A DNA stretch of 64,000 nt, from assembly GCF_900240945.1 (NCBI RefSeq), contig NZ_OESG01000014.1, positions 62,001 through 126,000 of the forward strand, read 5' to 3'. The DNA is from Mycobacterium sp. 3519A. GTDB lineage: Bacteria > Actinomycetota > Actinomycetes > Mycobacteriales > Mycobacteriaceae. Position 1 is the first letter of the stretch, and every line of letters starts with the position of its first letter. The notes under the pieces were generated by a model that was given only the letters and a program-made list of their open reading frames with translations, was not told the origin of the DNA and did not search any database. The translations under genes were made by a program, and so were the position numbers. This document shows, piece after piece, positions 4,896-64,000 of the stretch.

Positions 4896-6311
4896 GTGGC
4901 GAAAACATTCGTCGGCTCGAGGGTCAGGCAACTCCGCAGCGAGCGCGGGTTCAGCCAGGCGGCACTGGCGCAGATGTTGGAGATCTCGCCCAGTTATCTC
5001 AATCAGATCGAGCACGACGTTCGACCGCTGACGGTCGCGGTGCTGCTGCGAATCACCGAAGTGTTCGGGGTCGACGCGACGTTCTTCGCGTCTCAGGACG
5101 ACACCCGCCTCGTCGCCGAACTGCGCGAGGTGCTGATGGACCGCGACCTCGACGTCGACGTCGACCTCGCCGAGGTCGCCGACATGGTCGGCGCGCATCC
5201 GGCGTTGGCGCGCGCGATGGTGAACCTGCACAGCCGCTACCGGCTGACCGCCGCGCAACTGGCCAACGCGACGGAGGACCGCAATTCCGACGGCAGCGGG
5301 TCGGGGGCGATCACCATGCCGCACGAGGAAGTCCGCGACTACTTCTACCAACGGCAGAACTATCTGCACGAACTCGACACTGCCGCCGAGGATTTGACCA
5401 TCCGGATGCGCATGCACCGCGCCGAGTTGGCCCGTGAGCTGTCGGATCGGCTGACCCGCGTCCACGGCGTGCACATCATCCGTCGCATCGATCTCGGCGA
5501 CACCGTGTTGCACCGCTTCGATCCGGCGACCAAGACGTTGGAGATCAGCGGTCACCTGTCGTCGGGTCAGACGGTGTTCAAGATGGCGACCGAGTTGGCC
5601 TACCTCGAATTCGGCGACCTGATCGACAAACTCGTCGACGACGGCAAATTCACCAGCCAGGAGTCGACCAAGCTCGCCCGGCTGGGGCTGGCCAATTACT
5701 TCGCCGCGGCCACCGTGCTGCCGTACGGACAGTTCCACGACGTCGCCGAGAACTTCCGCTACGACATCGAACGGTTGTCGGCGTTCTACTCGGTCAGCTA
5801 CGAAACCATCGCGCACCGGCTGTCCACGCTGCAGCGGCCGTCGATGCGCGGGGTGCCGCTGTCCTTCGTCCGCGTGGACCGGGCGGGAAACATGTCGAAA
5901 CGCCAGTCCGCCACCGGCTTTCACTTCTCGTCGTCGGGCGGCACCTGCCCGCTGTGGAACGTCTACGAGACATTCGCCAACCCGGGCAAAATCGTCGTGC
6001 AGATCGCGCAGATGCCCGACGGGCGCAACTACATGTGGGTGGCACGCACGGTGGAGCGTCGCGCATCGCGCTATGGTCAGCCGGGTAAGACGTTCGCGAT
6101 CGGCCTCGGCTGTGAGCTCCGGCACGCGCACCGGCTGGTCTACTCGGAGGGACTGGACTTGTCCGGTGACAACGCGACACCGATCGGCGCGGGCTGCCGG
6201 GTCTGCGAACGTGACAACTGCCCGCAGCGGGCGTTCCCGGCGCTGGGCCGCGCACTGGACATCGACGAACACCGCAGCACGGTGTCGCCCTACCTGGTGA
6301 AGCAGTCATGA
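4896..6311 (+). CDS. ramB: XRE-family short-chain fatty acyl regulator RamB
   Basis: This 471-residue regulator has an N-terminal XRE helix-turn-helix (residues about 8-62, FSQAALAQMLEISPSYLNQIE), a central IrrE/DUF955-like region and the C-terminal ScfR domain with conserved cysteines (GAGCRVCERDNCPQRAFPA). RamB proteins control the glyoxylate shunt and acetate metabolism according to acyl-CoA status. The GTG start at 4896 is supported by a -10 element only 8 nt upstream and the conserved opening MAKTFVGSRVRQLR. It is next to its expected target aceA and overlaps the following gene by ATGA. A palindrome in its promoter suggests self-control. Confidence 0.93.
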   Translation: MAKTFVGSRVRQLRSERGFSQAALAQMLEISPSYLNQIEHDVRPLTVAVLLRITEVFGVDATFFASQDDTRLVAELREVLMDRDLDVDVDLAEVADMVGAHPALARAMVNLHSRYRLTAAQLANATEDRNSDGSGSGAITMPHEEVRDYFYQRQNYLHELDTAAEDLTIRMRMHRAELARELSDRLTRVHGVHIIRRIDLGDTVLHRFDPATKTLEISGHLSSGQTVFKMATELAYLEFGDLIDKLVDDGKFTSQESTKLARLGLANYFAAATVLPYGQFHDVAENFRYDIERLSAFYSVSYETIAHRLSTLQRPSMRGVPLSFVRVDRAGNMSKRQSATGFHFSSSGGTCPLWNVYETFANPGKIVVQIAQMPDGRNYMWVARTVERRASRYGQPGKTFAIGLGCELRHAHRLVYSEGLDLSGDNATPIGAGCRVCERDNCPQRAFPALGRALDIDEHRSTVSPYLVKQS

Positions 6312-11103: not shown

Positions 11104-12189
11104 ATGGCGGCACTGGTCGGTTTCGCCGGATTCGCGCACGCGCTCGCGGTCGCGGGGCTGCCTGCCGACGCCGTCGACACCTACACCAGGGCGCTGCGCG
11201 AGGTCGACGTCGCCGACCCGCGGCAGGTGTACTGGGCCGGCCGCGCGACGCTGTGCCGCGACCCCGACGACATCCCCCGCTACGACCTGGTGTTCGAGAA
11301 CTGGTTCGGCGGCACGGTGCCGGTCCGCGCGCCGCACCGCAGCCAGCCCCAGCGCCGCGCTCGCATCGCCGCGCTGGACACCACCGGCGACACCGACACC
11401 GACGGCGAGCCGCCGCACCTGCGGGTCGCCGCGGCCGACACCGAGATCCTGCGACACCGCGACATCGCCGAACTGACCGCCGCCGAGCGGGCGCATCTTG
11501 CCGAGCTGCTCGCCGCACTGCGGCCACAGTCCGCGACCCGGTCCGCGCTGCGGATGCGGCCGTCGCGCCGCGGCCGCGTCGACCCGCGGCGCACCCTGCG
11601 CCGCATGCTCGCCGCGGGCGGCGAACCGGTCCGGCCCCGGCACCACCGCAAGGACACCAGGCCACGGCGCATCGTGCTGCTGCTCGACGTGTCCGGCTCG
11701 ATGAGCCCGTACGCCGACGCGCTGCTGCGCTTCGCGCACGTCGTGGCCCGCAAAAGCCCTGCCACCGAAGTGTTTTCGCTCGGCACCAGAATGACGAGAC
11801 TGTCGCGGGCGCTGCGGGCCCGTGACCCCGAGACGGCGTTGGCCGCCGCGGGCCGCGCGGTGCCCGACTGGGCCGGCGGCACCCGACTCGGTGAGACGAT
11901 GCGCGCGTTCCTGGACCGGTGGGGCAGGCGCGGCATGGCCCGCGGCGCGGTGGTGGTGGTCTTCTCCGACGGCTGGGAGCGCGGCGAGCCCACCCTGCTC
12001 ACCGAGCAGATGGCGGCGCTGCGGCGACTCGCCCACACCGTGCTGTGGGTGAACCCGCACGCGGGCGTCGACGGCTATCAGCCGGTGCAATCGGGGATCG
12101 CCGCCGCGCTGCCCTACGTCGACCGGTTGCTCGCAGGCCACAGCCTGGCGACACTGCAGGATTTGCTCGACGAAATCCGCACCGCCTGA
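11104..12189 (+). CDS. VWA domain protein, CoxE-like maturation factor
   Basis: This 361-residue protein has a charged N-terminal half and a C-terminal von Willebrand A domain with an intact MIDAS motif LLLDVSGSMSPY (about residues 197-208) and a second acidic motif VVFSDGWERGE. It matches the CoxE family (VWA, CoxE), which works with the MoxR ATPase in maturation of the molybdenum enzyme. The start ATG follows the preceding stop with a single base between, so the pair is co-translated. It is strongly Arg/Ala rich and has no signal peptide, so it is cytoplasmic. Confidence 0.9.
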   Translation: MAALVGFAGFAHALAVAGLPADAVDTYTRALREVDVADPRQVYWAGRATLCRDPDDIPRYDLVFENWFGGTVPVRAPHRSQPQRRARIAALDTTGDTDTDGEPPHLRVAAADTEILRHRDIAELTAAERAHLAELLAALRPQSATRSALRMRPSRRGRVDPRRTLRRMLAAGGEPVRPRHHRKDTRPRRIVLLLDVSGSMSPYADALLRFAHVVARKSPATEVFSLGTRMTRLSRALRARDPETALAAAGRAVPDWAGGTRLGETMRAFLDRWGRRGMARGAVVVVFSDGWERGEPTLLTEQMAALRRLAHTVLWVNPHAGVDGYQPVQSGIAAALPYVDRLLAGHSLATLQDLLDEIRTA

Positions 12190-12252
12190 ACATTCTGGTG
12201 CGCAACCGGTTTCGCGATTCTGCGGGTTCCCGGCGGCCAGCCAGAGCAGAGT

Positions 12253-12765
12253 ATGCCTATGCGTATCACTGTCACCGTCGACGGAACCACGTACACCGAC
12301 GACGTGGAACCCCGACTTCTTCTCGTCCATTACCTTCGCGACCGGCTCGGCAAGGTCGGCACCGTGATCGGCTGCGACACCAGCAACTGCGGTGCCTGCA
12401 CCGTCCACCTCAACGGCTACAGCGTCAAGTCGTGCTCCGTGCTGGCCGTACAGGCCGACGGCGGTGACGTGACCACCGTCGAAGGGCTGGCACGAGACGG
12501 CAAACTGCACCCCGTGCAGGAGGCGTTCCGCGACAACCACGCGCTGCAGTGCGGCTTCTGCACCCCCGGCATGATCATGCAGACCATCGATCTGCTCGCC
12601 GAGCACCCGCATCCCGACGAAGAGGCGGTGCGGCACGGCCTGGAGGGCAACCTATGCCGGTGCACCGGATACCAGAACATCGTCAGGGCCGTGCAGGACG
12701 CGGCCAGCCGGCTGGAGGCGAAACCGGCTGCGCCCAAGACTGATTCGGCGGAGGCCGTCCGATGA
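12253..12765 (+). CDS. coxS: Molybdenum hydroxylase small subunit, two [2Fe-2S] clusters
   Basis: This 170-residue subunit has the plant-ferredoxin cluster motif [10 protein letters not shown] plus a distal Cys (SCSV), and the helical-domain cluster motifs QCGFCTPGM and CRCTGY. It passes electrons from the Mo site on the large subunit to FAD. The order small-large-medium that starts here is typical of form II enzymes, unlike medium-small-large of true CO dehydrogenase. Its stop overlaps the large-subunit start (ATGA). A second ATG two codons downstream is a possible start. Confidence 0.94.
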
Positions 12766-15128
12766 CCGCGACCGTTGAACCCGAGATCGGCAAGGCGCGG
12801 GTCCGCAAGGAGGACGAGCATCTGATCACCGGCCGCACCCGGTGGACCGACAACATCGTGCTGCCGGGCCTGCAGCACCTCGCCATCCTGCGCAGCCCCG
12901 TCGCACACGCCCGCATCACCAACATCGACACCAGCGCCGCGCGCAGCATGCCCGGCGTCATCGCCGTCTTCACCGGAGCCGATCTGGCGGCCGAACAGGG
13001 CAGCCTGCCCAACGCCTGGCAGATCACCGAGGACATGAAGGCGCCTGCCGCCCCGTCGCTGGCGGTGGACACCGTGAACTTCGCAGGCGAAGCGGTGGCA
13101 GTCGTGGTGGCCCGCACCGCGTACGAGGCCCAGGACGCGCTCGAACACATCGACGTCGACTACGACGACCTGCCGGTGGTGCTCGACCTCGCGGCCGCCG
13201 CCGACGACGCCGAGGTGATCTACCCGGACCTCGGCACCAACGTCAGCGCGGTGTGGACGTTCGACTCCGCGCAAGCAGGCACCGGCGGCGACGCCGAGGA
13301 CGCCATCCGCGACGCCGAGATCGTGCTGGAGCGCACCTTCCGCCAGCAGCGGCTGATCCCCGCGTTCATGGAGCCCCGCTCGGTCGTCGTCGATCCGACG
13401 GGCCCACAGCTGACCGTGTGGTCGGCCACGCAGATCCCGCACATCCTCAAGCTGATGCTGGCGATGACGCTGGAGATCCCCGAGCACAAGGTGCGCGTGA
13501 TCGCCCCCGACGTCGGCGGCGGATTCGGCGGCAAACTCCAGGTGACGCCGGAAGAGGTGATCGCGCTGCTGGTGGCGCGGCGGATCGGAAAGCCGGTGAA
13601 GTACACCGAATCCCGCAGCGAATCGATGCTCGCGGCGCACCACGGCCGCGACCAGATCCAGAAGCTGACGCTGGCCGCGCGCCGCGACGGCACGGTCACC
13701 GGCCTGAAGGTGGAACTGCTCGCCGACATGGGCGCTTATCTGCGGCTGGTCACCTCGGGCATCCCGATTTTGGGTGCCTTCATGTTCAACGGCATCTATA
13801 AATTCGGTTCGTACCACTTCACGTGTACCAACGTGTTCACCAACAAGACGCCCACCGACGCCTACCGCGGCGCCGGGCGCCCGGAGGCGACGTTCGCGAT
13901 CGAACGGATGATGGACGACCTCGCGGCGGAGTTGGGCCGTGATCCGCTCGAATTGCGTGCGCAGAACTGGATCAAACACGAGGAGTTCCCGTTCGACACC
14001 GTCGCGGGCCTGACCTACGACTCGGGTAACTACGAGGCCGCCACCGCGCAGGCGCGCGAGTTGTTCGACTACGACGGGTTGCGCCGCGAACAAGCCGAGC
14101 GCCGCGAACGCAACGACCCGGTGCAACTGGGCATCGGCGTCTCGACCTTCACCGAGATGTGCGGCCTCGCGCCGTCGCGGGTGCTCGGCTCGTTGTCCTA
14201 CGGGGCGGGCGGCTGGGAGCACGCCGCCATCCGGATGCTGCCCACCGGCAAGGTCGAGGTGGTCACCGGTTCGTCGCCGCACGGGCAGGGCCACGAGACA
14301 GCGTGGAGCCAGATCGTCGCCGACCAACTCGGTGTCCCGTTCGAGGACGTCGAGGTCATCCACGGCGACACCCAGAGCTCCCCGCGGGGTCTTGACACCT
14401 ACGGGTCGCGCTCGCTGGCTGTCGGCGCGATCGCGGTGGTGAAGGCCGCCGATAAGGTGATCGCCAAGGCGAAACCCTTTGCGGCACACATGATGGAGTG
14501 CTCCGAGGACGACCTCGAGTTCACCGGAGGCCGGTTCCGCGTCGCGGGCACCGAGAAGGCGGTCACCCTCGCCGAAGTCGCACTGGCCGTGTTCGCCGCG
14601 CACGATCTGCCCGAAGGGCTGGAACCGAACCTGGACGCCGAGGCGACCTACGACCCGGACAACTTCTCGTTCCCGCACGGCACCCATCTGTGCGCGACGG
14701 AGGTGGACACCGAGACCGGGCAGGTGCGGATTCGCCGCTATGTCTGCGTCGACGACATCGGGCACGTGGTCAATCCGCTGATCGTGGACGGGCAGGTGCA
14801 TGGCGGGCTGGCTCAGGGCATCGCGCAGGCGCTGTACGAGGAGGCCGTGCACGACGAGTCGGGCACGCTGATCAACGCATCGTTCGCGGAGTACCTGGTC
14901 CCGTCGGCGGTGGATCTGCCGACCTTCATCACCGGTCGCACCGAGACACCCGCGACGTCGAATCCGCTTGGCGTCAAAGGAGTTGGCGAAGCGGGCACCA
15001 TCGCGTCGACACCGGCGGTGGTCAACGCCGTCATCGACGCGGTGCGCCATCTCGGCGTCAATGACATCGAAATGCCGTGCAGCCCAATGAGAGTCTGGCA
15101 CGCCATCAACCAGGGAGGTGCCCGATGA
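12762..15128 (+). CDS. coxL: Molybdenum hydroxylase large subunit, form II CoxL-like
   Basis: This 788-residue molybdopterin-binding subunit belongs to the xanthine oxidase/CO dehydrogenase family. The loop that in true (form I) CoxL is AYxCSFR reads AYRGAGR here (residues 367-373), so the Cys that holds copper is absent. The catalytic Glu motif GVGEAG is present near the C-terminus, as is GGGFGGK near residue 250. CO oxidation by form II is disputed; an aldehyde, purine or other heterocycle hydroxylase is equally likely. The gene overlaps both neighbours by 4 bp, and moeA for cofactor synthesis lies 42 kb downstream in the window. Confidence 0.93.
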
Positions 15129-42747: not shown

Positions 42748-44430
42748 GTGCGGGCATATGCTGCGCCCGACACCCAGGCTTTGCGGGGCTGGCAGCGTCG
42801 GGCATTGGTGCGCTATCTGGGCGCCAAACCGCGCGACTTCCTCGCCGTCGCCACGCCGGGCGCGGGCAAGACGACGTTTGCCTTGCGGATCGCCGGCGAG
42901 CTGCTGGCCGACGGCACCGTCGAGCGCGTGACCGTCGTCGTACCCACCGAACACCTCAAGACGCAGTGGGCGCAGGCCGCCGCGAGGGTCGGCATCGCGC
43001 TCGACCCGAAGTTCTCCAACTCGTCGGCGCAGACGTCGTCGGAGTATCACGGTGTCGTCGTCACCTACGCACAGGTGGCCAGCCACCCGACCCGGCACCG
43101 GGTCCGCACCGAGAACTACCGCACGCTCGTGGTCTTCGACGAGATCCACCACGGCGGGGACGCGAAGAGTTGGGGCGACGCCATCCGGGAGGCCTACGCC
43201 GACGCGACCCGCCGCCTGGCGCTGACCGGGACGCCGTTCCGCAGCGACGACAGCCCCATCCCGTTCGTCACCTACGAACCCGACGGCGACGGCCTGATGC
43301 GTTCGCACGCCGACCACACCTACGGTTACGCCGAGGCGCTTGCCGACGGGGTGGTCCGGCCGGTGGTGTTCCTGGCCTACTCGGGGGAAGCGCGGTGGCG
43401 TGACAGCGCCGGCGAGGAACATTCCGCGCGCCTCGGTGAACCGCTGACCGCCGAGCAGACCGCACGGGCCTGGCGCACCGCGCTGAACCCGGCCGGCGAG
43501 TGGATCCCCGCCGTGCTGCAGGCCGCCAACACCCGCCTGACGCAGCTTCGCGAGGGCGGCATGCCCGACGCGGGCGCGATGGTGATCGCCTCGGACCAGA
43601 CCGCTGCCCGCGCCTACGCCGCGGAGTTGACGAAGCTGACGGGCCAGACGCCGACCGTGGTGCTCTCGGATGATCCCGGGTCGTCGGCACGCATTGCGGA
43701 GTACTCGGCGGGCACCAGCCCGTGGCTGGTGGCGGTGCGGATGGTGTCCGAGGGCGTCGACGTGCCCCGACTGGCGGTCGGGGTGTATGCGACCAGCGCG
43801 TCGACGCCGCTGTTCTTCGCCCAGGCGATCGGCCGGTTCGTCCGGTCGCGGCGACCCGGCGAGACGGCCAGCATCTTCCTGCCGTCGGTGCCCAACCTGC
43901 TGCTGCTGGCCAGTGAGATGGAGGCCCAGCGCAACCACGTGCTCGGCAAGCCGCACCGCGAGTCCGAAGGCGACGAGGAGTACGTCGAGCGGCGCAAGTC
44001 CGAGCCGAGCGAACTGGACAACGGCTTCGAATCGTTGGGCGCCGACGCCGAACTGGATCAGGTGATCTTCGACGGCTCGTCGTTCGGCACCGCTACTCCG
44101 GCGGGCAGCGAGGAGGAGGCCGACTATCTCGGCATCCCCGGGCTGCTCGATGCCGACCAGATGCGGGATCTGTTGCGGCGCAGGCAGGATGAGCAGTTGT
44201 CGAAGCGGACCGCGACGGGTGAGGTGCCGCGGCTGTCGACGCACAGCCAGCTGCGGGAACTGCGGCGCGAACTCAACACACTGGTGTCGATCGCGCACCA
44301 TCGCACCGGTAAGCCGCACGGCTGGATCCACAACGAGCTGCGCAGGTTGTGCGGCGGCCCGCCGATCGCGGCCGCGACGACCGATCAGCTCAAGGCCCGC
44401 ATCGAAGCGGTGCGCACCCTGCAGGCCTAG
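42748..44430 (+). CDS. DEAD/DEAH-box (superfamily II) helicase
   Basis: This 560-residue ATP-dependent helicase has motif I ATPGAGKTTFA (about residues 34-44), motif II VFDEIHHGGD (near 131), motif III LTGTPFRSD (near 158), and a C-terminal RecA fold with QAIGRFVRSRR as motif VI (near 360). The last 150 residues are helical and basic with no recognised domain. It resembles the XPB/ResIII group, so DNA unwinding is likely, but the target is unknown. GTG 42748 has GAGGAG 6 nt upstream and a TAGGCT -10 element at 42716. It ends 4 bp inside the convergent acidic repeat gene. Confidence 0.88.
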   Translation: MRAYAAPDTQALRGWQRRALVRYLGAKPRDFLAVATPGAGKTTFALRIAGELLADGTVERVTVVVPTEHLKTQWAQAAARVGIALDPKFSNSSAQTSSEYHGVVVTYAQVASHPTRHRVRTENYRTLVVFDEIHHGGDAKSWGDAIREAYADATRRLALTGTPFRSDDSPIPFVTYEPDGDGLMRSHADHTYGYAEALADGVVRPVVFLAYSGEARWRDSAGEEHSARLGEPLTAEQTARAWRTALNPAGEWIPAVLQAANTRLTQLREGGMPDAGAMVIASDQTAARAYAAELTKLTGQTPTVVLSDDPGSSARIAEYSAGTSPWLVAVRMVSEGVDVPRLAVGVYATSASTPLFFAQAIGRFVRSRRPGETASIFLPSVPNLLLLASEMEAQRNHVLGKPHRESEGDEEYVERRKSEPSELDNGFESLGADAELDQVIFDGSSFGTATPAGSEEEADYLGIPGLLDADQMRDLLRRRQDEQLSKRTATGEVPRLSTHSQLRELRRELNTLVSIAHHRTGKPHGWIHNELRRLCGGPPIAAATTDQLKARIEAVRTLQA

Positions 44431-45533
44431 AAGAAGCTGTCGTCCTCGGTGGTCACCTCGCCGCCCGCGCCTGCGAGTTCGCCCGTGGCGCCGGGGCCGT
44501 AGTCCGCCGCCGCGGGACCGTCCTCGCCGACCGGATTCAGCGAGTAGTTGGGGTCCGCACCGGGGCCGTACGCGCTGACGCCGGAGCCCGCCGCCTCCTC
44601 CGCGGCCGAACCACCGTAATCCGATGTACCCCAATAGCCGTCGGCACCGGAATACTGCGCCTGCTCACCGGCGGTCTGGTCGGGCTCAGCCTCTTCCGCA
44701 GGCCCGATGTCGACCTGCCAGTCGTTCTGCATAGAGTTCTCGCCGAGGCTGTAGCTTTCCGTCGCGCCCACTTCACCGCTCGCTCCTGCGAGCTCACCCG
44801 TGGCGCCGGGGCCGTAGTCCGGCGCCGCGGGACCGTCCTCGCCGACCGGGTTCAGCGAATAGTTCGGATCCGCACCCGGCCCGTATGCGCTCACGCCCGA
44901 GCCTGCCGCCTCCTCCGCGGCCGAACCACCGTAATCCGATGTCCCCCAATAACCATCGGCGCCCGAGTACTGCGCCTGCTCACCGGCGGTCTGGTCGGGC
45001 TCAGCCTCTTCCGCCGGCCCGATGTCGACCTGCCAGTCGTTTTTCATCGGGTTCTCGCCGAGCGTCCCGGCATCGCCGAACACATCGCTGCCCGCACTGG
45101 GCCCGCCGTCGTATTCGCCGCCTGCCCCATAACCTTGCGCCTGCTCGCCGGCGGTCTGAGCTATCCCGTCGGCCATCGGATCGGGATGGATGATGCCCGA
45201 GGGCGGCGAATCGGTACCGGGATGCGACGGTTCCATTGGGCCGTTGGTGTCCCAATTCTCCTTGTCGTCCACGATGATTCCGGCGGCCGACTTGAGGTCG
45301 GGTCCTGCGATACCGTGCTCGTTGACGTAGGTGCCGAGGTCGAAATTGGGGTCCGTGAAGTCGCTGCCACTGGCATTCGCATCCGGCGTCGTCGGATCGG
45401 CAACCGATTGCGCCATGCCGGCCAGCGTCTCCTTCGCCTCGTGCACGGTTTCCCGCACGCTGTCGGGGGCCAGGTCAGCCACGGCCCTGGCGGCCTCGCC
45501 GAACGGATCGTTGATGAAATCACTTATGGACAT
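44427..45533 (-). CDS. Acidic protein with internally duplicated 105-residue repeat
   Basis: The 368-residue protein is strongly acidic and rich in Gly, Asp, Glu, Ala and Ser. An N-terminal part (residues 1-155, SISDFINDPFGEAARAVADL) is followed by two copies of a 105-residue unit containing NDWQVDIGPAEEAEPDQTAG and YWGTSDYGGSAAEEAAGSG. The copies are nearly identical, so duplication is recent. There is no signal peptide, cysteine or known domain. It is the third gene of the IniB-like, IniA-like operon, 31 bp after the dynamin gene, and takes the place where iniC stands in M. tuberculosis. Function is unknown. Confidence 0.85.
   Translation of the reverse strand: MSISDFINDPFGEAARAVADLAPDSVRETVHEAKETLAGMAQSVADPTTPDANASGSDFTDPNFDLGTYVNEHGIAGPDLKSAAGIIVDDKENWDTNGPMEPSHPGTDSPPSGIIHPDPMADGIAQTAGEQAQGYGAGGEYDGGPSAGSDVFGDAGTLGENPMKNDWQVDIGPAEEAEPDQTAGEQAQYSGADGYWGTSDYGGSAAEEAAGSGVSAYGPGADPNYSLNPVGEDGPAAPDYGPGATGELAGASGEVGATESYSLGENSMQNDWQVDIGPAEEAEPDQTAGEQAQYSGADGYWGTSDYGGSAAEEAAGSGVSAYGPGADPNYSLNPVGEDGPAAADYGPGATGELAGAGGEVTTEDDSFF
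44461..45065. repeat. Tandem 315-bp period duplication inside the acidic protein gene
   Basis: The stretch starting CCGCCCGCGCCTGCGAG at 44461 recurs at 44776 (CCGCTCGCTCCTGCGAG). About 290 bp of each unit align without visible gaps. Differences are mainly silent third-position changes, with a few conservative ones. Confidence 0.9.
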
Positions 45534-45564
45534 CTGCGCTCTCCTATCGCGATGGATGTGTCAG

Positions 45565-47457
45565 TCATCCGACGGCCACCACCGCGGGTGCTGCTTGGGG
45601 TGATGCCGGGCTCCCGGCCGCGGCACCGGGCGACAACTTCGAAATGTGCTCGGAAACAGCACGCAAGATCTTGAGCTGCCGCTCGAGTTCCTTTACCCGC
45701 GTGTTGCTCTCGACTTCTTTCAACCGGGCCGAAGCGATCGTCGCCTGCAGCGATTCGTTCAGCGATCGGTTGGCTTGGTTCGCGATCTCGCGGTAGTGGT
45801 CGCGCAACTGACGTTGGACCACCTTGAGCCGGTCGCGCGATTCCTTGGTCACCACGAAGGAGACGTCGTCGATGAACTTACGCATGTTCATCTTCGCTTC
45901 GCCGCGGGCCCGGTTGAGCCGGTTCTCCTGATCCTCCCTGTAGGCTTTGCGGCCTAGTAGCACACCCGCTCCCACCGCAAGCGGGTTCATCAACGGCAGG
46001 CCGGCAAGCGATGTCAGCATGCCGAACATCATCATTCCGCCGTAGGAGCCCCTGACACCGGTTAGTACCTTGTGCCCCTTGCCAATCGGCTTGGCCTCGA
46101 GCTTGCCGACAGCTTTCACACCGCCGAAACTGGCGCCGATGTGACCGGCGTTGATCACCGGGGCGTCCACCGACTCGATGCCGGCCTCGGCGAACGTCAC
46201 ACCGACCTCGTCAGCCAGTGCCTGTGCCCGCTGGTACGCCCAGACGAAGTTGTCGCCGACCGCGGTCGCTACCGCGTCCTCCAACTCCGTGGCGAGCTGC
46301 ACCCAGCACACCGTCGGGTCGCAGCCGTCGATGACATGCTCCGTATGTTGGCTTATCGCTCGGAACCGGCTTCTCAGGTCGTGATCCACATCGCCGGTGA
46401 GATCAGCGATTCCGTCGTTGAGCACCTGTTGCCACAGCGCGGTCTGCGCCAGCGCGTCCTGCGCTTCCCGCTTGCGCCGCTCGAGATCCTCCGTCAACTG
46501 CTGACGCGCCTTGGGGTCATTGATCGCTTCGAGCTCGGTACTCAACGACAATGTCAAATGCTCAGCAGCCGAGGCGATTTCGTTAAGTACCTGGTCCCGG
46601 ATGCGATCGTTCTGGCGCGACAGCACCGAATCGGCGAGAAATCGGACGATGGCAGGGAAGTTCGACTCCTCGTTGATTTCGTTGTCGTTGGTCGCGCATG
46701 CGTGTGACCGCAGGATCGACGAAACCGGAATCAAGGGGGCGGCGATGCGGGCCCGCTGCAGATGCGTGGTGTTGGCGTAGACGACGTCACGCCAATGCGG
46801 GTAGATGTCCGTCTTCGTCGCGATGATCGCTGCGACAGGACACATTTCGAACGCCTGGCGCATGAACGTCATCTCTGGTTCGGTGAACTCCTGGCTCAGG
46901 TCGCTGACCATCAGCACGGCGTCGGCGTCGGGCAGCAGGCCGAGGGTCGCCGCCAGGTGCGGCTGCCCGTATCCGCCAACGCCCGGCGTGTCCACCAGAG
47001 CCAACCCGCTCTTCAACATCGGGCTCGGCGCGCCCACCTCGACCCGGATCACCTCTCGGCCGCCCGCTTGCGGCGCGCGGCGAAGGTCGCTGCCCAGTTC
47101 GTTGGTCGGGATGGCGATGACTTCGGGTTCGGAGTGTTCCGATTCGTCCGGTTGCGCTACGACCAAACGCGCCCAAGGCTTTTCGGAGTAGCTGACCACC
47201 GTGGCGACTGCGGTTGACTCGTCATCACCCACCTTGCAGACGTTGAGGTTCAACAAGGAGTTGACCAGCTGGCTTTTACCCTGCTTGAGCTGCCCCGCGA
47301 CGATCACGCGAATGCGGGGATCGGCTATCCGTGTCCGCGCCCTGGCCAGCCGCTCCGCGAGATCGCCGCGCTCGTTGAGGTCGGCGATCTTCGTGGTGTG
47401 GTCGATGAGCTCGACGATCAGCTTGACGTTGCGGGGATCGCCGGCCGGCGTGGTCAT
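45565..47457 (-). CDS. iniA: Dynamin-like GTPase of the IniA family
   Basis: This 630-residue protein has a dynamin-type GTPase: G1 GQLKQGKS (55-62), G2 Thr near 82, G3 DTPG (156-159) and G4 TKTD (214-217). A long helical middle region follows, then a hydrophobic paddle (about 471-501, MMMFGMLTSLAGLPLMNPLA) and a C-terminal coiled coil. IniA in M. tuberculosis remodels the inner membrane and is induced by cell-wall drugs such as isoniazid and ethambutol. Here it follows an IniB-like gene 27 bp away, as iniB-iniA do, but a short acidic protein replaces iniC. Length and sequence fit IniA well. Confidence 0.92.
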   Translation of the reverse strand: MTTPAGDPRNVKLIVELIDHTTKIADLNERGDLAERLARARTRIADPRIRVIVAGQLKQGKSQLVNSLLNLNVCKVGDDESTAVATVVSYSEKPWARLVVAQPDESEHSEPEVIAIPTNELGSDLRRAPQAGGREVIRVEVGAPSPMLKSGLALVDTPGVGGYGQPHLAATLGLLPDADAVLMVSDLSQEFTEPEMTFMRQAFEMCPVAAIIATKTDIYPHWRDVVYANTTHLQRARIAAPLIPVSSILRSHACATNDNEINEESNFPAIVRFLADSVLSRQNDRIRDQVLNEIASAAEHLTLSLSTELEAINDPKARQQLTEDLERRKREAQDALAQTALWQQVLNDGIADLTGDVDHDLRSRFRAISQHTEHVIDGCDPTVCWVQLATELEDAVATAVGDNFVWAYQRAQALADEVGVTFAEAGIESVDAPVINAGHIGASFGGVKAVGKLEAKPIGKGHKVLTGVRGSYGGMMMFGMLTSLAGLPLMNPLAVGAGVLLGRKAYREDQENRLNRARGEAKMNMRKFIDDVSFVVTKESRDRLKVVQRQLRDHYREIANQANRSLNESLQATIASARLKEVESNTRVKELERQLKILRAVSEHISKLSPGAAAGSPASPQAAPAVVAVG

Positions 47458-47484
47458 CGCCGTGTGGTGGGGAACGTTGGCCGA

Positions 47485-48471
47485 TCAGATGAGGCTGACA
47501 TCAGCCGAGACGTCGGTCGACACGTTCGGGTTGTGCTGGCTGTTGTCGTCGTGGCTGTCGACGTTGTGGCCGCTGGAGTAGTCGTTCGACGAGTTGTCGA
47601 CGGAGTTGTCGTCGGCGTGGCTGGTGTCCAGATCGCCACCGATGGAACCGATGTCGCCGCCGATGTCCGTGTTGTTCTCGTCGCCGTACACCGTGTGGCT
47701 GTTGTCGAGGCCGAGGCTGCCGCCGCCGGTGTCCACACCGTTGAGCACCGGCCCGTCATTGCCGCTGATCATGTCACCGCCGGCCTTCATCGACGTGGCG
47801 TCGGTGTCGTTGCCGTCGCCGAACGTGATCGGTGAACCGTCGCCTGCGTCGATGTCGCCGTTGAGGACGGTGTTGCCGTCGCCGAGCACCGCACCGTCGC
47901 CACTGACGATGCTGCCCGAGTTGTCACCGCTCATCGCCACCGCGCCGTCACCTGACGCGACGTTCTTGTCGCCGAGCGTGACGTCGCCGACGTCCACGCC
48001 GAGGTTGAAACCACCGCCGCCCTGTTGCACGCCGTCCATGTGCGGGCTCATGTAGTCGCCCATGCTGTTGTGGCTGTCGATGTTGGTTTCGTGGTTCGAC
48101 AAGTCGTTGGCCTGAGGCGCGTACGTGGTGTGTGTGACGTCGCCCTGACTGGATCCGCTCAGCCCGGACGGTCCGGAGGTATGCGTGATCGGCGCGGCGA
48201 CGTTGCCCTGCTGCGTGTGCTCGACGTGTTGCGGGGCGGGCGCGGGCATGCCGTGATGGCTGGCGACCGCTTGTTGGAGGCCGCTCATGCCCTGACCGGC
48301 GGGCAGCGCAGCACCTCCCGGCGCGGCCATCGCGGCGACGGCCTGGATCTGCTCGGGGCTGACGTTGCCGAGGCCGATCGAGGCCAACGCTGCCTGGGGA
48401 TTGTCAACAAACGACTCCGCTTTGCCCGGGTCCTTGAACAGATCCATGATGTAGTCGACGAGATTGGCCAT
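47485..48471 (-). CDS. IniB-N-terminal-domain protein with acidic Gly/Asp/Asn-rich repeats
   Basis: This 328-residue protein has an N-terminal IniB-like domain (residues 1-75, MANLVDYIMDLFKDPGKAES, then PQAALASIGLGNVSPEQIQA). After it come repeats like SGDGAVxxGDGNTV, likely a beta-solenoid, then an Asn/Ser/Asp/His-rich end. The Gly/Ala-rich C-terminus of M. tuberculosis IniB is absent. There is no signal peptide or catalytic motif. ATG 48471 has GGAAGG upstream. It heads the IniB-like, IniA-like, acidic-protein operon and is divergent from the Hsp70-like gene, suggesting a shared stress response. Confidence 0.87.
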   Translation of the reverse strand: MANLVDYIMDLFKDPGKAESFVDNPQAALASIGLGNVSPEQIQAVAAMAAPGGAALPAGQGMSGLQQAVASHHGMPAPAPQHVEHTQQGNVAAPITHTSGPSGLSGSSQGDVTHTTYAPQANDLSNHETNIDSHNSMGDYMSPHMDGVQQGGGGFNLGVDVGDVTLGDKNVASGDGAVAMSGDNSGSIVSGDGAVLGDGNTVLNGDIDAGDGSPITFGDGNDTDATSMKAGGDMISGNDGPVLNGVDTGGGSLGLDNSHTVYGDENNTDIGGDIGSIGGDLDTSHADDNSVDNSSNDYSSGHNVDSHDDNSQHNPNVSTDVSADVSLI

Positions 48472-48563
48472 GATGGTGCCTTCCAACGGATAGCGAAATT
48501 GCGCGCCGGCGCTACCCGGCCCCCTACTGCGCACGTTATGACCGCAGACGGCACCGAAGAAAT

Positions 48564-48577
48564 AAGGTATTTACCTT
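48564..48577. promoter_or_regulatory. Palindrome in the divergent IniB-like/Hsp70-like promoter
   Basis: AAGGTA-TT-TACCTT is a perfect 6-2-6 inverted repeat in the 187-bp divergent region, in an AT-rich patch. A TTGACC -35-like hexamer near 48600 points toward the Hsp70-like gene. It is a candidate regulator or Lsr2-type site. Confidence 0.45.
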
Positions 48578-48658
48578 CAATTCCGGCTTCGCCGTCCCCT
48601 TTGACCTGCGCTGGGTGCACACTTGTCGCCGCCAGCGGGCGCGGCGAGGGGGGTTTCG

Positions 48659-50494
48659 ATGACTAATTCGTTGGGGTTGTCGGCCGGCATGACGAACCTG
48701 GCAGCGGTGCCATCGGCCGGGCCACCGGCGCTGCATCGCTCGATTCTCACCCTTTTCCCCGGCCGGCCACCCGAAGTCGGGGCGCCCGGCCAGCGGGCTT
48801 CCGCCGAACATGGCATCGTGCTGGCGGGCTTCGTGGAGCGTGTGGGCGACCCGATTCCGTTGGTGGCCGCCGACGGTTCGACGCATCGCCCCGGCCGCCT
48901 GCTCGTCGAGGCACTCAACAGCATGGCCCACCTCACCGGCAACGGCCGCCCCCCTGAGGACGTTGCGGTTTCCGTTCCCGCGCATTGGGATTCGCGGGTC
49001 ATGTCGGCGTTCCACACCGATGTGGCCGCGAACGGCCGGCTCTGCAAGGCGGGCGCCTCGGCCCAGCTGATCTCCGACGCGACGGCCGCGCTGTCGGCCC
49101 TCTACGACAATCCGGGCTTGCCGTCGCGAGGCGTCGTCGCGCTGCTCGATCTGGGCGGGACCGGAACGAGCATCACGCTTTCCGACGCCGCCTCGGGCTG
49201 GGCACCGATCGTTGCCACCGTCCGTGACACCGATTTCGCCGGGCAGCAGATCGACCAGGCCGTGCTCGCGCGCGTGCTCGCAGGCGTCGCAGCGGCGGCG
49301 AACATCGATCCTGACAGCACCGGCGCGGTGCTGTCGTTGAGCCGATTACGCGATCAGTGCCGCGCTGCGAAGGAGGCGTTGTCGGCACAGACCGTCGCCA
49401 CGCTGACCGCCGAACTGCCGGGCTTCCGATCCAACGTCAGGCTGACCCGCACCGAACTCGAGGATGTGCTTGACGAGCCGCTCCGCGGACTGCTCACGAC
49501 GCTGGAAAATACGTTGGACCGCAACAGGATTCCGGTGGCCGAGATGGTTGCCATCGCAACCGTCGGGGGTGGCGCCAATATCCCACTGGTCACCCAGCGC
49601 CTATCGCAGCACTTCCGGATTCCGGTGGTGACATGTCCGCGTCCGGAACTCGCCGCGGCAGCGGGTGCGGCGCTGATCGCCGCTCGCGGCCCTGCCGCGC
49701 CTGCGACCACGTTGACACCGGCCGCGGCAGTGGCGACCGCGGCCGCGGCCACCGACGACAACAACCCTGCGAGCCAAACCTTCCGGGCGCTGGCCTGGTC
49801 GGAGGACGCCACGGGAGACGACGTCGCGCCGTATGCGGGTCAACCCGACGACCCACGACCTCAACTGGAGTACCTCCGCGACGAGGACAGCGTCGCCGAG
49901 GAAACCCCGCTGGCTTGGTACCGACGACCGACGTTGCTGTTCGGGGCGGCCGCCGCGGCGGTGTTGCTTGCCGGTGGCGGCCTGACGTACACGTTGACGA
50001 GCAGCAGCGGCCACACCGGCCCGGCGCCGGCGCCCGCGACATCTGTAGTGCCCGTTGCAGTCCCGCCCGAGGCGCCGCCCGCCGCACCCGCCCCCGGCGT
50101 GGTGCAGGCGCCCGCCCCGGTGATCGTTCGCCAGGCACCGGCACCGCCGCGGCGGGTGCAGCAGCGACCCGCGGCTCCCCAGGCGCCGAAGCCGGCAGTG
50201 CAGGCACCACCACCGGAGGCGACGACCACGACCACGCCCACCCCCACGTCGACTACGACCACCACGAGCACGACGCCGACGACCACCGAACCCACGTCCT
50301 CGCAGCCGCCCACTTCGTCGGCGCCGGTGAGCACCGAGCAGACGCCGGTGAGTACGCCGGCCGAGGTGGCGACGCCGGAGCCGACCGAGCAGGTACCCAC
50401 GGCCGTCCAAGCCCCGACCGACACTCAGGCGCCTGTCGACACCCCGCAGATCACGATCCCGCAGTTCACCCTGCCGCAGCTGCCCGGCATCTAG
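48659..50494 (+). CDS. Hsp70/actin-fold membrane protein with Pro/Thr-rich exported tail
   Basis: The 611-residue protein has an Hsp70-type ATPase domain (about 1-350) with phosphate 1 segment LGLSAGMTNLAA, phosphate 2 LLDLGGTGTSITLSD, and adenosine motif ATVGGGANIPLV. A membrane helix follows near residues 424-446 (LLFGAAAAAVLLAGGGLTYT), then a 160-residue Pro/Thr/Ala-rich tail ending ITIPQFTLPQLPGI. The substrate-binding beta-domain of DnaK is missing. A cytoplasmic ATPase may thus sense or move a cell-wall-facing tail. It is divergent from the ini-like operon. ATG 48659 is chosen over 48623 because GGGGGG precedes it. It converges on the next gene with a 4-bp overlap. Confidence 0.88.
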   Translation: MTNSLGLSAGMTNLAAVPSAGPPALHRSILTLFPGRPPEVGAPGQRASAEHGIVLAGFVERVGDPIPLVAADGSTHRPGRLLVEALNSMAHLTGNGRPPEDVAVSVPAHWDSRVMSAFHTDVAANGRLCKAGASAQLISDATAALSALYDNPGLPSRGVVALLDLGGTGTSITLSDAASGWAPIVATVRDTDFAGQQIDQAVLARVLAGVAAAANIDPDSTGAVLSLSRLRDQCRAAKEALSAQTVATLTAELPGFRSNVRLTRTELEDVLDEPLRGLLTTLENTLDRNRIPVAEMVAIATVGGGANIPLVTQRLSQHFRIPVVTCPRPELAAAAGAALIAARGPAAPATTLTPAAAVATAAAATDDNNPASQTFRALAWSEDATGDDVAPYAGQPDDPRPQLEYLRDEDSVAEETPLAWYRRPTLLFGAAAAAVLLAGGGLTYTLTSSSGHTGPAPAPATSVVPVAVPPEAPPAAPAPGVVQAPAPVIVRQAPAPPRRVQQRPAAPQAPKPAVQAPPPEATTTTTPTPTSTTTTTSTTPTTTEPTSSQPPTSSAPVSTEQTPVSTPAEVATPEPTEQVPTAVQAPTDTQAPVDTPQITIPQFTLPQLPGI

Positions 50495-50961
50495 CCGCTC
50501 GCCAGATCCGCCAGGTGCTTCAACGAGTTGTCCAGATGCGACATCTCGAACGGCGGGAAACCGATGTGCTCGCGGGTGGCGGCCGGCACCCCCGACCAGT
50601 CGTAGGTCAACGTGACCTCCGTCCGGTCGGGCCCGACCGGCTCGAGGTCGTAGCGCCAGATCCACCCGCCGAACTCCAGATTGGCGTCGTCGTCCCCTTG
50701 CCCGGGCAGCCAGGCGATGGCGCGCGGCGGCTCGAACACCTCGACCCGATTCGCCATCTCGTAGTGCATCCCGCCGTAGTTCTGGTGGTACATCGCCATC
50801 CGGAAGACCTGCCCGACATCGGTCAACGGCTTCCCGTCCAGCGATTCACGCACCCATCCGGTGCCGTCGATCGCCTGGTGCGTGGTCGGATCGGCCAGCA
50901 CGTCGAACACGGCATGTGCGGGCGCCTCGATCGTCACGGTTGCTTTCATGTTCTCAGTCAT
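50491..50961 (-). CDS. SRPBCC (START-like) family protein, copy 1
   Basis: This 156-residue protein has the helix-grip fold: VTIEAPAHAVFDVLADPTTH at the start, central AIAWLPGQGDDDANLEFGGW and the long C-terminal helix MSHLDNSLKHLADLASG. The fold binds hydrophobic ligands, and none can be named. A similar protein, sharing the RxxAWLP and GxxWRxxLEPxG pattern, is encoded at 62447. It is divergent from the peptidase E-like gene with only about 60 bp between, and convergent with the Hsp70-like gene. Confidence 0.87.
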   Translation of the reverse strand: MTENMKATVTIEAPAHAVFDVLADPTTHQAIDGTGWVRESLDGKPLTDVGQVFRMAMYHQNYGGMHYEMANRVEVFEPPRAIAWLPGQGDDDANLEFGGWIWRYDLEPVGPDRTEVTLTYDWSGVPAATREHIGFPPFEMSHLDNSLKHLADLASG

Positions 50962-62975: not shown

Positions 62976-63440
62976 ATGACCGCACCCGCCGTCACGTCCG
63001 TTCGCGCCGGCGACCGCGACCGGGAAAGGACCGCCAAGCAGTTGGGGCTGGCGCTGTCCCAGGGCTACCTCGCCTTCGACGAGTACGACCACCGACTGCA
63101 GGCCACCTTCGCCGCGCACAGCACCGCTGAACTGCGTCAACTCGTCGCCGATCTACCGCTCGCGCAACTGCACCGCAACGACCCCGAGCGAAAGGCAGCG
63201 CGGCAGCGTGCCGCCCGACTCGGCGTGCGCATCCATCTGGGCGCCTACCTGGCGATGGTCGTCATCGTGCTGACGGTGTGGTTGGCGGTCGGCCTGACCG
63301 CGGGGGCGTGGTACTTCTGGCCGATCTGGCCGATCCTCGGCGCAGGCATCGGCGTGGCCGGCCACGCACTACCGATTCGATACGCGGTGCTGGCGCCGTG
63401 CCGGCGTCACGGCTCGATCAGCCCCGCCCGGATCGCATAG
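62976..63440 (+). CDS. DUF1707 and 2TM domain membrane protein
   Basis: The 154-residue protein has an N-terminal DUF1707 domain (VRAGDRDRERTAKQLGLALS, then YLAFDEYDHRLQATFAAHST) and two membrane helices (AYLAMVVIVLTVWLAVGLTA and FWPIWPILGAGIGVAGHALP). DUF1707 is a short SHOCT-like domain in actinobacteria with no known activity. GGAGGGCCCC precedes ATG 62976. Its final 34 bp overlap the convergent response-regulator gene, and the promoter is strong and palindromic. Confidence 0.88.
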   Translation: MTAPAVTSVRAGDRDRERTAKQLGLALSQGYLAFDEYDHRLQATFAAHSTAELRQLVADLPLAQLHRNDPERKAARQRAARLGVRIHLGAYLAMVVIVLTVWLAVGLTAGAWYFWPIWPILGAGIGVAGHALPIRYAVLAPCRRHGSISPARIA

Positions 63441-64000
63441 CGGGTCAACTCGAGGCGGTCCCTGAGGCCGAGTTTGGCCAGTGTGTTCGTCCGGTGCCGG
63501 TCGACGGTCTTGGCGCTGATGCCCAGCGTGTTGGCGATCTCCCGCGTCGAGTATCCCTCGGCGATCAGTTTGAGCACCTCTTCTTCGCGTGGCGTGAGAA
63601 TCGTGTCGGGCAGGTCGTCGCCCTGCCTGGCGCGGTGCAGGTAGTCACGGATCAGCGCCGTCACCGCACCGGCGTACAGGAACGGCTCACCGCGCAACGT
63701 CGCCCGGCACGCCTCGAGCAGGTCGCGGTCGGCCACCGATTTGAGCACGTACCCCGACGCGCCTGCCTTGAGCGCCTCGAAGAAGTACTGCTCGTTGTCG
63801 TACATCGACAGGATCAGGATCCGCAGGTGCGGATGCCTGCGGTTGATCTCGCGGGCAGCCTGCAGTCCGGTCATCCGCGGCATCGCGATGTCGAGGATGG
63901 CCAGGTCGGCCGGGGTGTGCTCGAGGACGTCCAGCGCCTCGTGCCCGTCGGCAGCCTCGGCCACCACCTGCAGATCGGGTTCGGCGTCGATGATCCTGCG
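63407..64000 (-). CDS. NarL/FixJ-family response regulator, 5' end cut by window
   Basis: About 198 residues are visible; the N-terminus lies beyond base 64000. The receiver domain has the phospho-acceptor Asp in LAILDIAMPR and the conserved Lys in GYVLKSVADR. A LuxR-type helix-turn-helix follows: LTPREEEVLKLIAEGYSTRE, then IANTLGISAKTVDRHRTNTL. It is presumably paired with a histidine kinase outside the window. Its 3' end overlaps the DUF1707 gene by 34 bp. Confidence 0.93.
   Translation of the reverse strand, partial: RRIIDAEPDLQVVAEAADGHEALDVLEHTPADLAILDIAMPRMTGLQAAREINRRHPHLRILILSMYDNEQYFFEALKAGASGYVLKSVADRDLLEACRATLRGEPFLYAGAVTALIRDYLHRARQGDDLPDTILTPREEEVLKLIAEGYSTREIANTLGISAKTVDRHRTNTLAKLGLRDRLELTRYAIRAGLIEP

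Follow-up and report, generated by a model that had tools for sequence, protein, structure and literature searches.

A second, reduced ini locus in Mycobacterium sp. 3519A, with a probable pseudo-Hsp70 beside the IniA dynamin

Why should the gene for an Hsp70-like membrane protein stand next to that of a bacterial dynamin? This question is raised by four genes (44427-50494) in a 64,000-nt stretch of DNA from Mycobacterium sp. 3519A, referred to here as the window, which comprises positions 62,001-126,000 of contig NZ_OESG01000014.1 in a genome of 7.3 Mb in 14 contigs (G000); coordinates are those of the whole window. Three of the genes, encoding an IniB-like protein, the dynamin IniA and an acidic protein, lie on the minus strand, and the gene for the Hsp70-like protein diverges from them on the plus strand. 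The answer that we favor, with a probability of about 0.5, is that the Hsp70-like protein is a pseudo-Hsp70 that serves as a membrane anchor for IniB and IniA, whose binding we infer, and that the window carries a minimal copy of this cassette outside the control of the regulator IniR. The gene set, its conservation, the insertion point, purifying selection, the catalytic replacements, a predicted helix and an absent promoter repeat are those parts of this answer that can be read from sequence.

A first-pass annotation of the window had delimited the four genes, and re-reading of the open reading frames upholds both their coordinates and their spacing. The gene for the IniB-like protein (47485..48471; 328 amino acids from its ATG) is followed after 27 bp by that for IniA (45565..47457; 630 amino acids), and this after 31 bp by the gene for an acidic, Gly/Ala-rich protein (44427..45533; 368 amino acids). 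A divergent promoter region of 187 bp (48472..48658) lies between the IniB-like gene and the Hsp70-like gene (48659..50494; 611 amino acids from its ATG). The window IniA matches Pfam Dynamin_N (E = 4e-15), aligns over residues 13-610 of 630 with the solved M. smegmatis IniA (PDB 6j72/6j73; E = 6e-277 for 6j72), and possesses GTPase motifs of the P-loop, DxxG and T/NKxD types (GQLKQGKS at 55, DTPG at 156 and TKTD at 214); unlike its M. smegmatis counterpart, it has no IniC adjacent to it. Judged by its GTPase domain and its full-length similarity, it is a member of the bacterial dynamin-like IniA proteins, and GTP-dependent membrane fission has been reported for IniA of M. smegmatis (PMC6715688; papers are cited by PMC number). 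It is 69% identical to the canonical IniA of the same genome, and its position in the IniA tree is within the mycobacterial clade, where its branch is long and its neighbors are weakly supported. The IniB-like protein belongs to the IniB family by its match to NCBIfam IniB_NTERM (66.9 bits; cut-off 40); a helical N-terminal domain (about residues 4-49) precedes an Asp/Gly-rich remainder predicted to be disordered, and in its structure model (residues 1-327; mean predicted local distance difference test score of 44) the N-terminal helices alone are usable.

The Hsp70-like protein matches the Pfam HSP70 profile with 75.9 bits (cut-off 20.6) over residues 100-342 only; the structure model backs the fold of an Hsp70-type nucleotide-binding domain, which profile, model and alignment place at residues 1-344 (48659..49690). 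Neither the Pfam scan nor the structure model revealed a substrate-binding domain. In the model, a disordered linker (residues 349-417) leads to a single predicted transmembrane helix (residues 424-447; 49928..49999) and a Pro/Thr-rich tail predicted to be disordered (residues 448-611; 50000..50491), with 40 Pro and 32 Thr among the last 161 residues of the protein. Helix and tail are as described in the first-pass annotation, and the topology would put the tail outside the cytoplasmic membrane. The designation as an ATPase, on the other hand, is not supported: the equivalents of the residues that we take, by DnaK numbering and role, to be catalytic in Hsp70 are all replaced in the alignment (D8 by S, K70 by V, E171 by D, T199 by G and D201 by S). 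The same or similar changes affect these five hydrolysis residues in all 27 mycobacterial copies aligned; K70, E171, T199 and D201 are replaced as well in 15 further, mostly non-ini copies, in whose trimmed alignment D8 is not confidently scorable. Because the five hydrolysis residues are replaced and a substrate-binding domain is missing, the Hsp70-like protein probably lacks ATPase activity. These features, together with the membrane helix and the Pro/Thr tail, set it apart from the DnaK/Hsc70 chaperones.

The pairing of the Hsp70-like gene with IniA, to which attention had been drawn at the outset, is borne out by a survey of gene neighborhoods. Our sample of the genus contains 45 IniA loci, the window locus included, in 59 genomes, 44 of which have IniA and 15 of which do not. 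Counted from 150 listed Hsp70-like matches, the Hsp70-like gene lies within 10 kb of IniA at at least 43 of the 45 loci; a further search found an Hsp70-like fragment at a contig end adjoining IniA in G005, bringing the count to 44, and the lone exception, G028, has a truncated contig. By chance, about 0.01 such adjacencies are expected per IniA locus. In a sample of the order, IniA is present in 55 of 150 genomes and in 18 of 46 genera, counting the home genus. Twenty loci (from 19 genomes) were fetched from the 43 IniA matches in other genera, and they contain a non-DnaK Hsp70-like gene in 17 cases, IniC in 18, an IniB-domain gene in 15 and IniR in 13. At L032, one of the three without an Hsp70-like gene, the contig begins just upstream of IniA and true DnaK alone was matched; the other two, L034 and L048 (one genus, same family), have a distant IniA, and their fetched stretches gave no match for IniC, IniB, IniR or the Hsp70-like protein. 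These counts suggest that the Hsp70-like gene regularly belongs to the IniA locus.

The window genome also possesses, on the same contig and at a distance of 172 kb, a canonical ini locus with iniC-iniA-iniB-iniB* (Rv0340-type) on one strand, followed by a divergent Hsp70-like gene and iniR; IniR (1432 bits; cut-off 750), the Rv0340 family and the IniB domain are confirmed by NCBIfam. The genes iniB, iniA and iniC stand together at canonical locus L004 but not in the window, and a profile search of the fetched loci found no iniC, iniB* or iniR beside the window locus. The absence of IniC emphasized in the first-pass annotation consequently applies to this locus and not to the genome, where both IniC and IniR are encoded at the canonical site. 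By its gene content, the window locus is a second, extra and reduced ini copy. It resembles the iniBAC loci with IniR of M. tuberculosis, M. marinum and M. smegmatis in having an IniB-type gene followed by IniA on one strand, and differs from them in the missing IniC, IniB* and IniR, in the acidic protein that follows IniA, in the lack of the promoter repeat and in its site. An apparent IniR match at 63410-64000 (E = 7e-19), the sole one within the window, turned out on re-reading to be a response regulator with a LuxR-type domain (63407-64000), cut by the window end.

The vicinity of iniR provides the main rival to an anchoring role. In the first 17 canonical mycobacterial loci that we read (L024, with its cut contig, was left out, and L091 and L092 were read later), the Hsp70-like gene is always present, and in 14 of them it lies divergently beside iniR. 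The Hsp70-like protein could then be a membrane sensor that controls IniR and is tied to IniA through regulation only. MalK and other proteins control MalT, an activator related to IniR. The arrangement in the window genome, where the canonical Hsp70-like stop codon precedes iniR by 3 bp on the same strand, would suit such a sensor, and IniR, in agreement with its model, has a LuxR-type DNA-binding domain; a domain of IniR has been compared with MalT domain III (PMC5760070). However, the cassettes of the window and of G066 keep the Hsp70-like gene with IniB and IniA and have no iniR alongside, and at five loci (L018, L020, L023, L091 and L092) the Hsp70-like gene comes after iniC. Weakened by these loci away from or without iniR, control of IniR appears rather unlikely to be what the protein is kept for. 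At L023 (G040), the iniC match (11548-13028) is spread over three reading frames, which may reflect a disrupted gene or a misassembly.

How IniR might act on these loci is suggested by a CCCCTAAY direct repeat that is common to the upstream regions of canonical ini genes. At L004, its copies are spaced by 8 and 11 bp in the region preceding iniB and by 15 and 18 bp in that from iniB* to the Hsp70-like gene; these regions hold three and two exact 9-mers, respectively. We searched for pairs of the form CCCCTA N(1-26) CCCCTAAYG and used the reversed pattern as a control. The window genome contains three such pairs, all at its canonical locus (control: one); across the 59 genomes, pairs were found in 42 of the 44 with IniA (G007 and G025 being missed) and in none of the 15 without, 99 in total vs 18 for the control. 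Six hits are clearly located away from the ini locus (G003, G006, G015, G021, G023 and G038), a reading from which hits on other contigs in G012 and G042 were excluded; all of the six except that in G023 immediately precede a stand-alone IniB-domain gene. Hits on separate contigs in G034 and G051 correspond to the iniR side of the ini locus, and those in G028 are on the contig that ends in its Hsp70-like match. In the other genera, at least one exact CCCCTAA is present between the Hsp70-like gene and IniB in 13 of the 20 loci. This distribution strongly supports the repeat as the putative operator of the ini regulon. IniR would be its natural binder, since chromatin immunoprecipitation sequencing has placed IniR just upstream of iniBAC (PMC5760070). 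The free-standing IniB-domain genes with a CCCCTAAY pair upstream (L083, L084, L085, L089 and L090, around position 5000) are likely a second target of IniR in one mycobacterial group.

The promoter region in the window is of a different kind. Its 187 bp contain no exact CCCCTAAYG, and the one copy with a single mismatch (CCCCTACTG at 48521-48529) is not shared by G066. Since the repeat is absent here, co-induction via IniR is not expected for the window copy; the shared stress induction that had been proposed for the four genes is therefore to be predicted for the canonical Hsp70-like gene, and not for that of the window. This argument relies on the promoter region and not on the count of exact CCCCTAA in the whole window (0 vs 1.1 expected), which is uninformative. 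A palindrome for HpoR has been reported for the iniBAC promoter (PMC13413693); with two mismatches allowed, it occurs 0 times in the window intergenic region, 7 times in the window (16.9 expected) and 3 times at L004 (3.7 expected).

One may ask whether the Hsp70-like gene at ini loci is simply a passenger, belonging to a multi-copy family and having no function with IniA. Members of this family are present in 59 of the 59 genus genomes (1-7 matches), the 15 without IniA included, a further listed copy lies 20-90 kb away at 22 of the 45 IniA loci, and true dnaK is likewise found near some ini loci. Yet the adjacency exceeds chance by far and is kept in other genera, the gene lies together with IniB and IniA in a new location, and at canonical loci it faces the ini promoter repeat, all of which makes a mere passenger improbable. 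Second Hsp70-like copies after iniR or iniC occur at L012:17998-19785, L030:16641-18233, L017:13844-15772 and others, and CCCCTAAC boxes are situated immediately upstream of those in L012 and L030. As true dnaK lies inside the fetched ini stretch of four genomes (L030:2-727, L031:987-2936, L032:10861-12765 and L033:2880-4775), a nearby dnaK copy may have given rise to the Hsp70-like gene.

The new site itself is informative. IniA (E up to 1e-100) was recovered from 274 of 396 genus genomes, with at most three candidates scored per genome; among the matches listed, sorted by E-value, the window type is confined to G000 and G066, whose IniA proteins of this type are 94% identical, and the other listed matches have no more than 72% identity to the window IniA. 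Two IniA matches are also present in G076, G192 and G245; of these pairs, that of G245 was followed up and consists of two equal copies of the canonical type on one contig. Both in the window genome and in G066, the cassette is located exactly between a helicase gene (42748..44430, plus strand; convergent with the acidic gene, with overlapping stop codons) and a gene for an SRPBCC-fold protein (50491..50961, minus strand). The helicase gene is present in 59 of the 59 genus genomes. At five of 16 fetched helicase loci without the cassette (L069, L070, L074, L080 and L081), it is directly beside the SRPBCC gene, with 12-65 bp between the ends of the two matches; at L067, the two are 1.2 kb apart, and the remaining ten have no SRPBCC match beside the helicase. 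Because the cassette fills the space between genes that are adjacent elsewhere, the four genes most likely arrived as one block. The helicase weakly resembles DNA-phosphorothioation restriction enzymes (77 bits vs a model cut-off of 600).

Between the window and G066, the ratio of nonsynonymous to synonymous substitution rates (dN/dS) is 0.13 for the acidic gene (260 codons aligned), 0.05 for IniA, 0.15 for IniB and 0.25 for the Hsp70-like gene, values by which all four genes are under purifying selection between the two species. Synonymous divergence amounts to 0.60 for IniA and 0.78 for the acidic gene, and to 0.19-0.38 for the Hsp70-like, IniB, helicase and SRPBCC genes; being higher than in the neighbors, it suggests that the IniA-acidic half (44427-47457) has been exchanged by recombination. 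A decaying duplicate without function would be consistent with the rarity of the locus (2 of 396 genomes), with its lack of the promoter repeat and with an internal duplication in the acidic gene that is unseen in aligned homologues. It would not be expected to keep four frames open in two species with dN/dS values of 0.05-0.25, nor would window-type IniB then form a group of its own, with nine proteins (itself included) at 71-100% identity and the next at 52% or less; we hold decay to be very improbable. Least credible of all is the reading of the first-pass annotation, an active chaperone driven by ATP as stress sensor or assembly factor for the dynamin, which has in its favor the clear Hsp70 fold and the three copies with intact catalytic residues named below, and has against it the replacement of all five of these residues in the window protein, the like changes in the other aligned mycobacterial copies and the missing substrate-binding domain.

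The anchor that we favor could operate as follows. IniA would be the GTP-driven enzyme that remodels the membrane, and the Hsp70-like protein a pseudo-ATPase acting as anchor or adaptor, with its Hsp70-shaped cytoplasmic domain fixed to the membrane and its Pro/Thr tail tying it to the cell wall. In analogy to Hsp70 domains that hold BAG or GrpE co-chaperones, this domain might hold the helical N-terminus of IniB and thereby place or nucleate IniA at the damaged envelope. IniB and the acidic protein, as disordered and strongly acidic arms, might concentrate or space the complex. Because the window copy has neither IniC nor IniB* nor IniR, the Hsp70-like protein, IniB and IniA probably form the functional core, and expression of this copy probably does not require IniR.

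Several observations weigh against this proposal. The window type is represented by two related genomes only, so that what we deduce from the missing genes rests on one event. IniC and IniR are still encoded elsewhere in the genome and could act in trans, and IniR could use a degenerate site. Three copies near IniA in other families (L035:6250-7818, L049:16946-19576 and L050:10913-13540) keep all catalytic residues, and those of L036, L041, L042, L044 and L047, from other genera, are without a clear membrane helix; neither anchoring nor loss of the ATPase is accordingly universal. The open frames of L049 and L050 (about 877 amino acids) extend about 367 residues past the predicted membrane helix. 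At the five loci named above, the Hsp70-like gene follows iniC and does not face iniB*. The family is present in genomes without IniA, and its use must hence be wider than the dynamin. Finally, the loci of the M. tuberculosis group may differ, as PMC5760070, in its accessible part, names M. smegmatis only. A more general scheme, to which we would subscribe only tentatively, regards the ini system of Mycobacteriales not as an operon of three genes but as a machine with a fixed additional component, a membrane-anchored pseudo-Hsp70 in which mycobacteria traded ATP hydrolysis for dynamin scaffolding; it would derive from an ATP-competent Hsp70 still found at the ini loci of some other families, share the CCCCTAAY operator with IniB paralogues, and have given rise, by reduction on one or more occasions, to a stand-alone cassette of pseudo-Hsp70, IniB, IniA and acidic protein that works outside IniR control.

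What, then, is the acidic protein that occupies the place of IniC in the window? It contains 68 Asp and Glu residues vs 6 Lys and Arg residues in 368 amino acids, begins with a conserved N-terminus (MSISDFINDPFG) and closes on Phe at its acidic C-terminus. The first-pass annotation had called it duplicated, which is correct in the sense of an internal duplication: two 294-nt copies, 90% identical, lie at 44454..44747 (nearer the stop codon) and 44769..45062 (nearer the start codon) on the minus strand. Ten other homologues, aligned without the window protein's own cluster (P0001), do not have this duplication. A search among 5.8 billion proteins returned 11 homologues, itself included, and within the genus, with at most five candidates scored per genome, the protein is present in two of 396 genomes (G000 and G066), apart from one marginal match in G152 (E = 1e-3). 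While the Hsp70-like part of the gene set is widespread with IniA, the acidic protein is rare, and the idea that it generally stands in for IniC is not supported, in view of this rarity, its layout and the lack of a GTPase domain in Pfam and NCBIfam scans; as far as its sequence tells, it substitutes for IniC by position only. NCBIfam gave no match to the IniB N-terminal domain, and a relationship to IniB as a divergent member was not detected with hhalign (probability 0.4%; E = 0.15). What the acidic protein has in common with IniB is a short pattern at the N-terminus, a central part that is acidic and of low complexity, and Phe at the C-terminal end; in layout it is IniB-styled, without being an IniB, and closer to IniB than to IniC. 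A Phe within the last five residues is found in 33 of 52 open reading frames with an IniB-domain match, compared with 2 of 71 for IniA, 3 of 77 for IniC, 0 of 31 for IniR and 1 of 47 for the Hsp70-like protein, in sets that include IniA/IniC cross-matches and cut frames. The window IniB ends in DVSLI; the Phe tail can consequently not be essential.

From its name and description, and not from an alignment, we take Rv0312/MSMEG_0692 to belong probably to the wider Hsp70-like family, and from its locus number Rv0312 is presumably not adjacent to iniA. The resemblance to the window protein is one of description, namely an Hsp70-type domain, one helix and richness in Pro and Thr, as given for a Pro/Thr-rich membrane protein with an Hsp70 domain (PMC11898655; PMC11126594), which appears in an FhaA interactome table (PMC11898655). 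A dnaK-like gene beside iniR is already in print for M. smegmatis, in one sentence of PMC5760070, and by that description, sequences not having been compared, it is of the same kind and in the same neighborhood as the gene described here. That mention concerns, in the accessible text, a single species; here, the gene is traced through the genus and into other genera, with the catalytic residues lost in mycobacteria. Beyond this sentence, and apart from one review that mentions IniA or IniB together with Hsp70, the literature that we searched, which included few subscription papers, yielded no pairing of iniBAC with an Hsp70-like gene and no report of a dynamin-Hsp70 gene neighborhood, nor, by title among the matches listed, any paper linking CCCCTAA to iniBAC. 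As far as this literature goes, the constancy of the Hsp70-like gene, the loss of its catalytic residues, the promoter repeat and the minimal cassette seem to be new.

The ini operon is a well-known mycobacterial response to cell-wall drugs. The scission activity of IniA alone is relatively low, and IniC has been suggested as a helper (PMC6715688). A conserved pseudo-Hsp70 neighbor would be another concrete candidate for the missing factor that places or helps IniA, the conserved promoter repeat makes the ini regulon searchable by sequence, and the minimal second cassette offers a natural experiment on those parts that must stay together.

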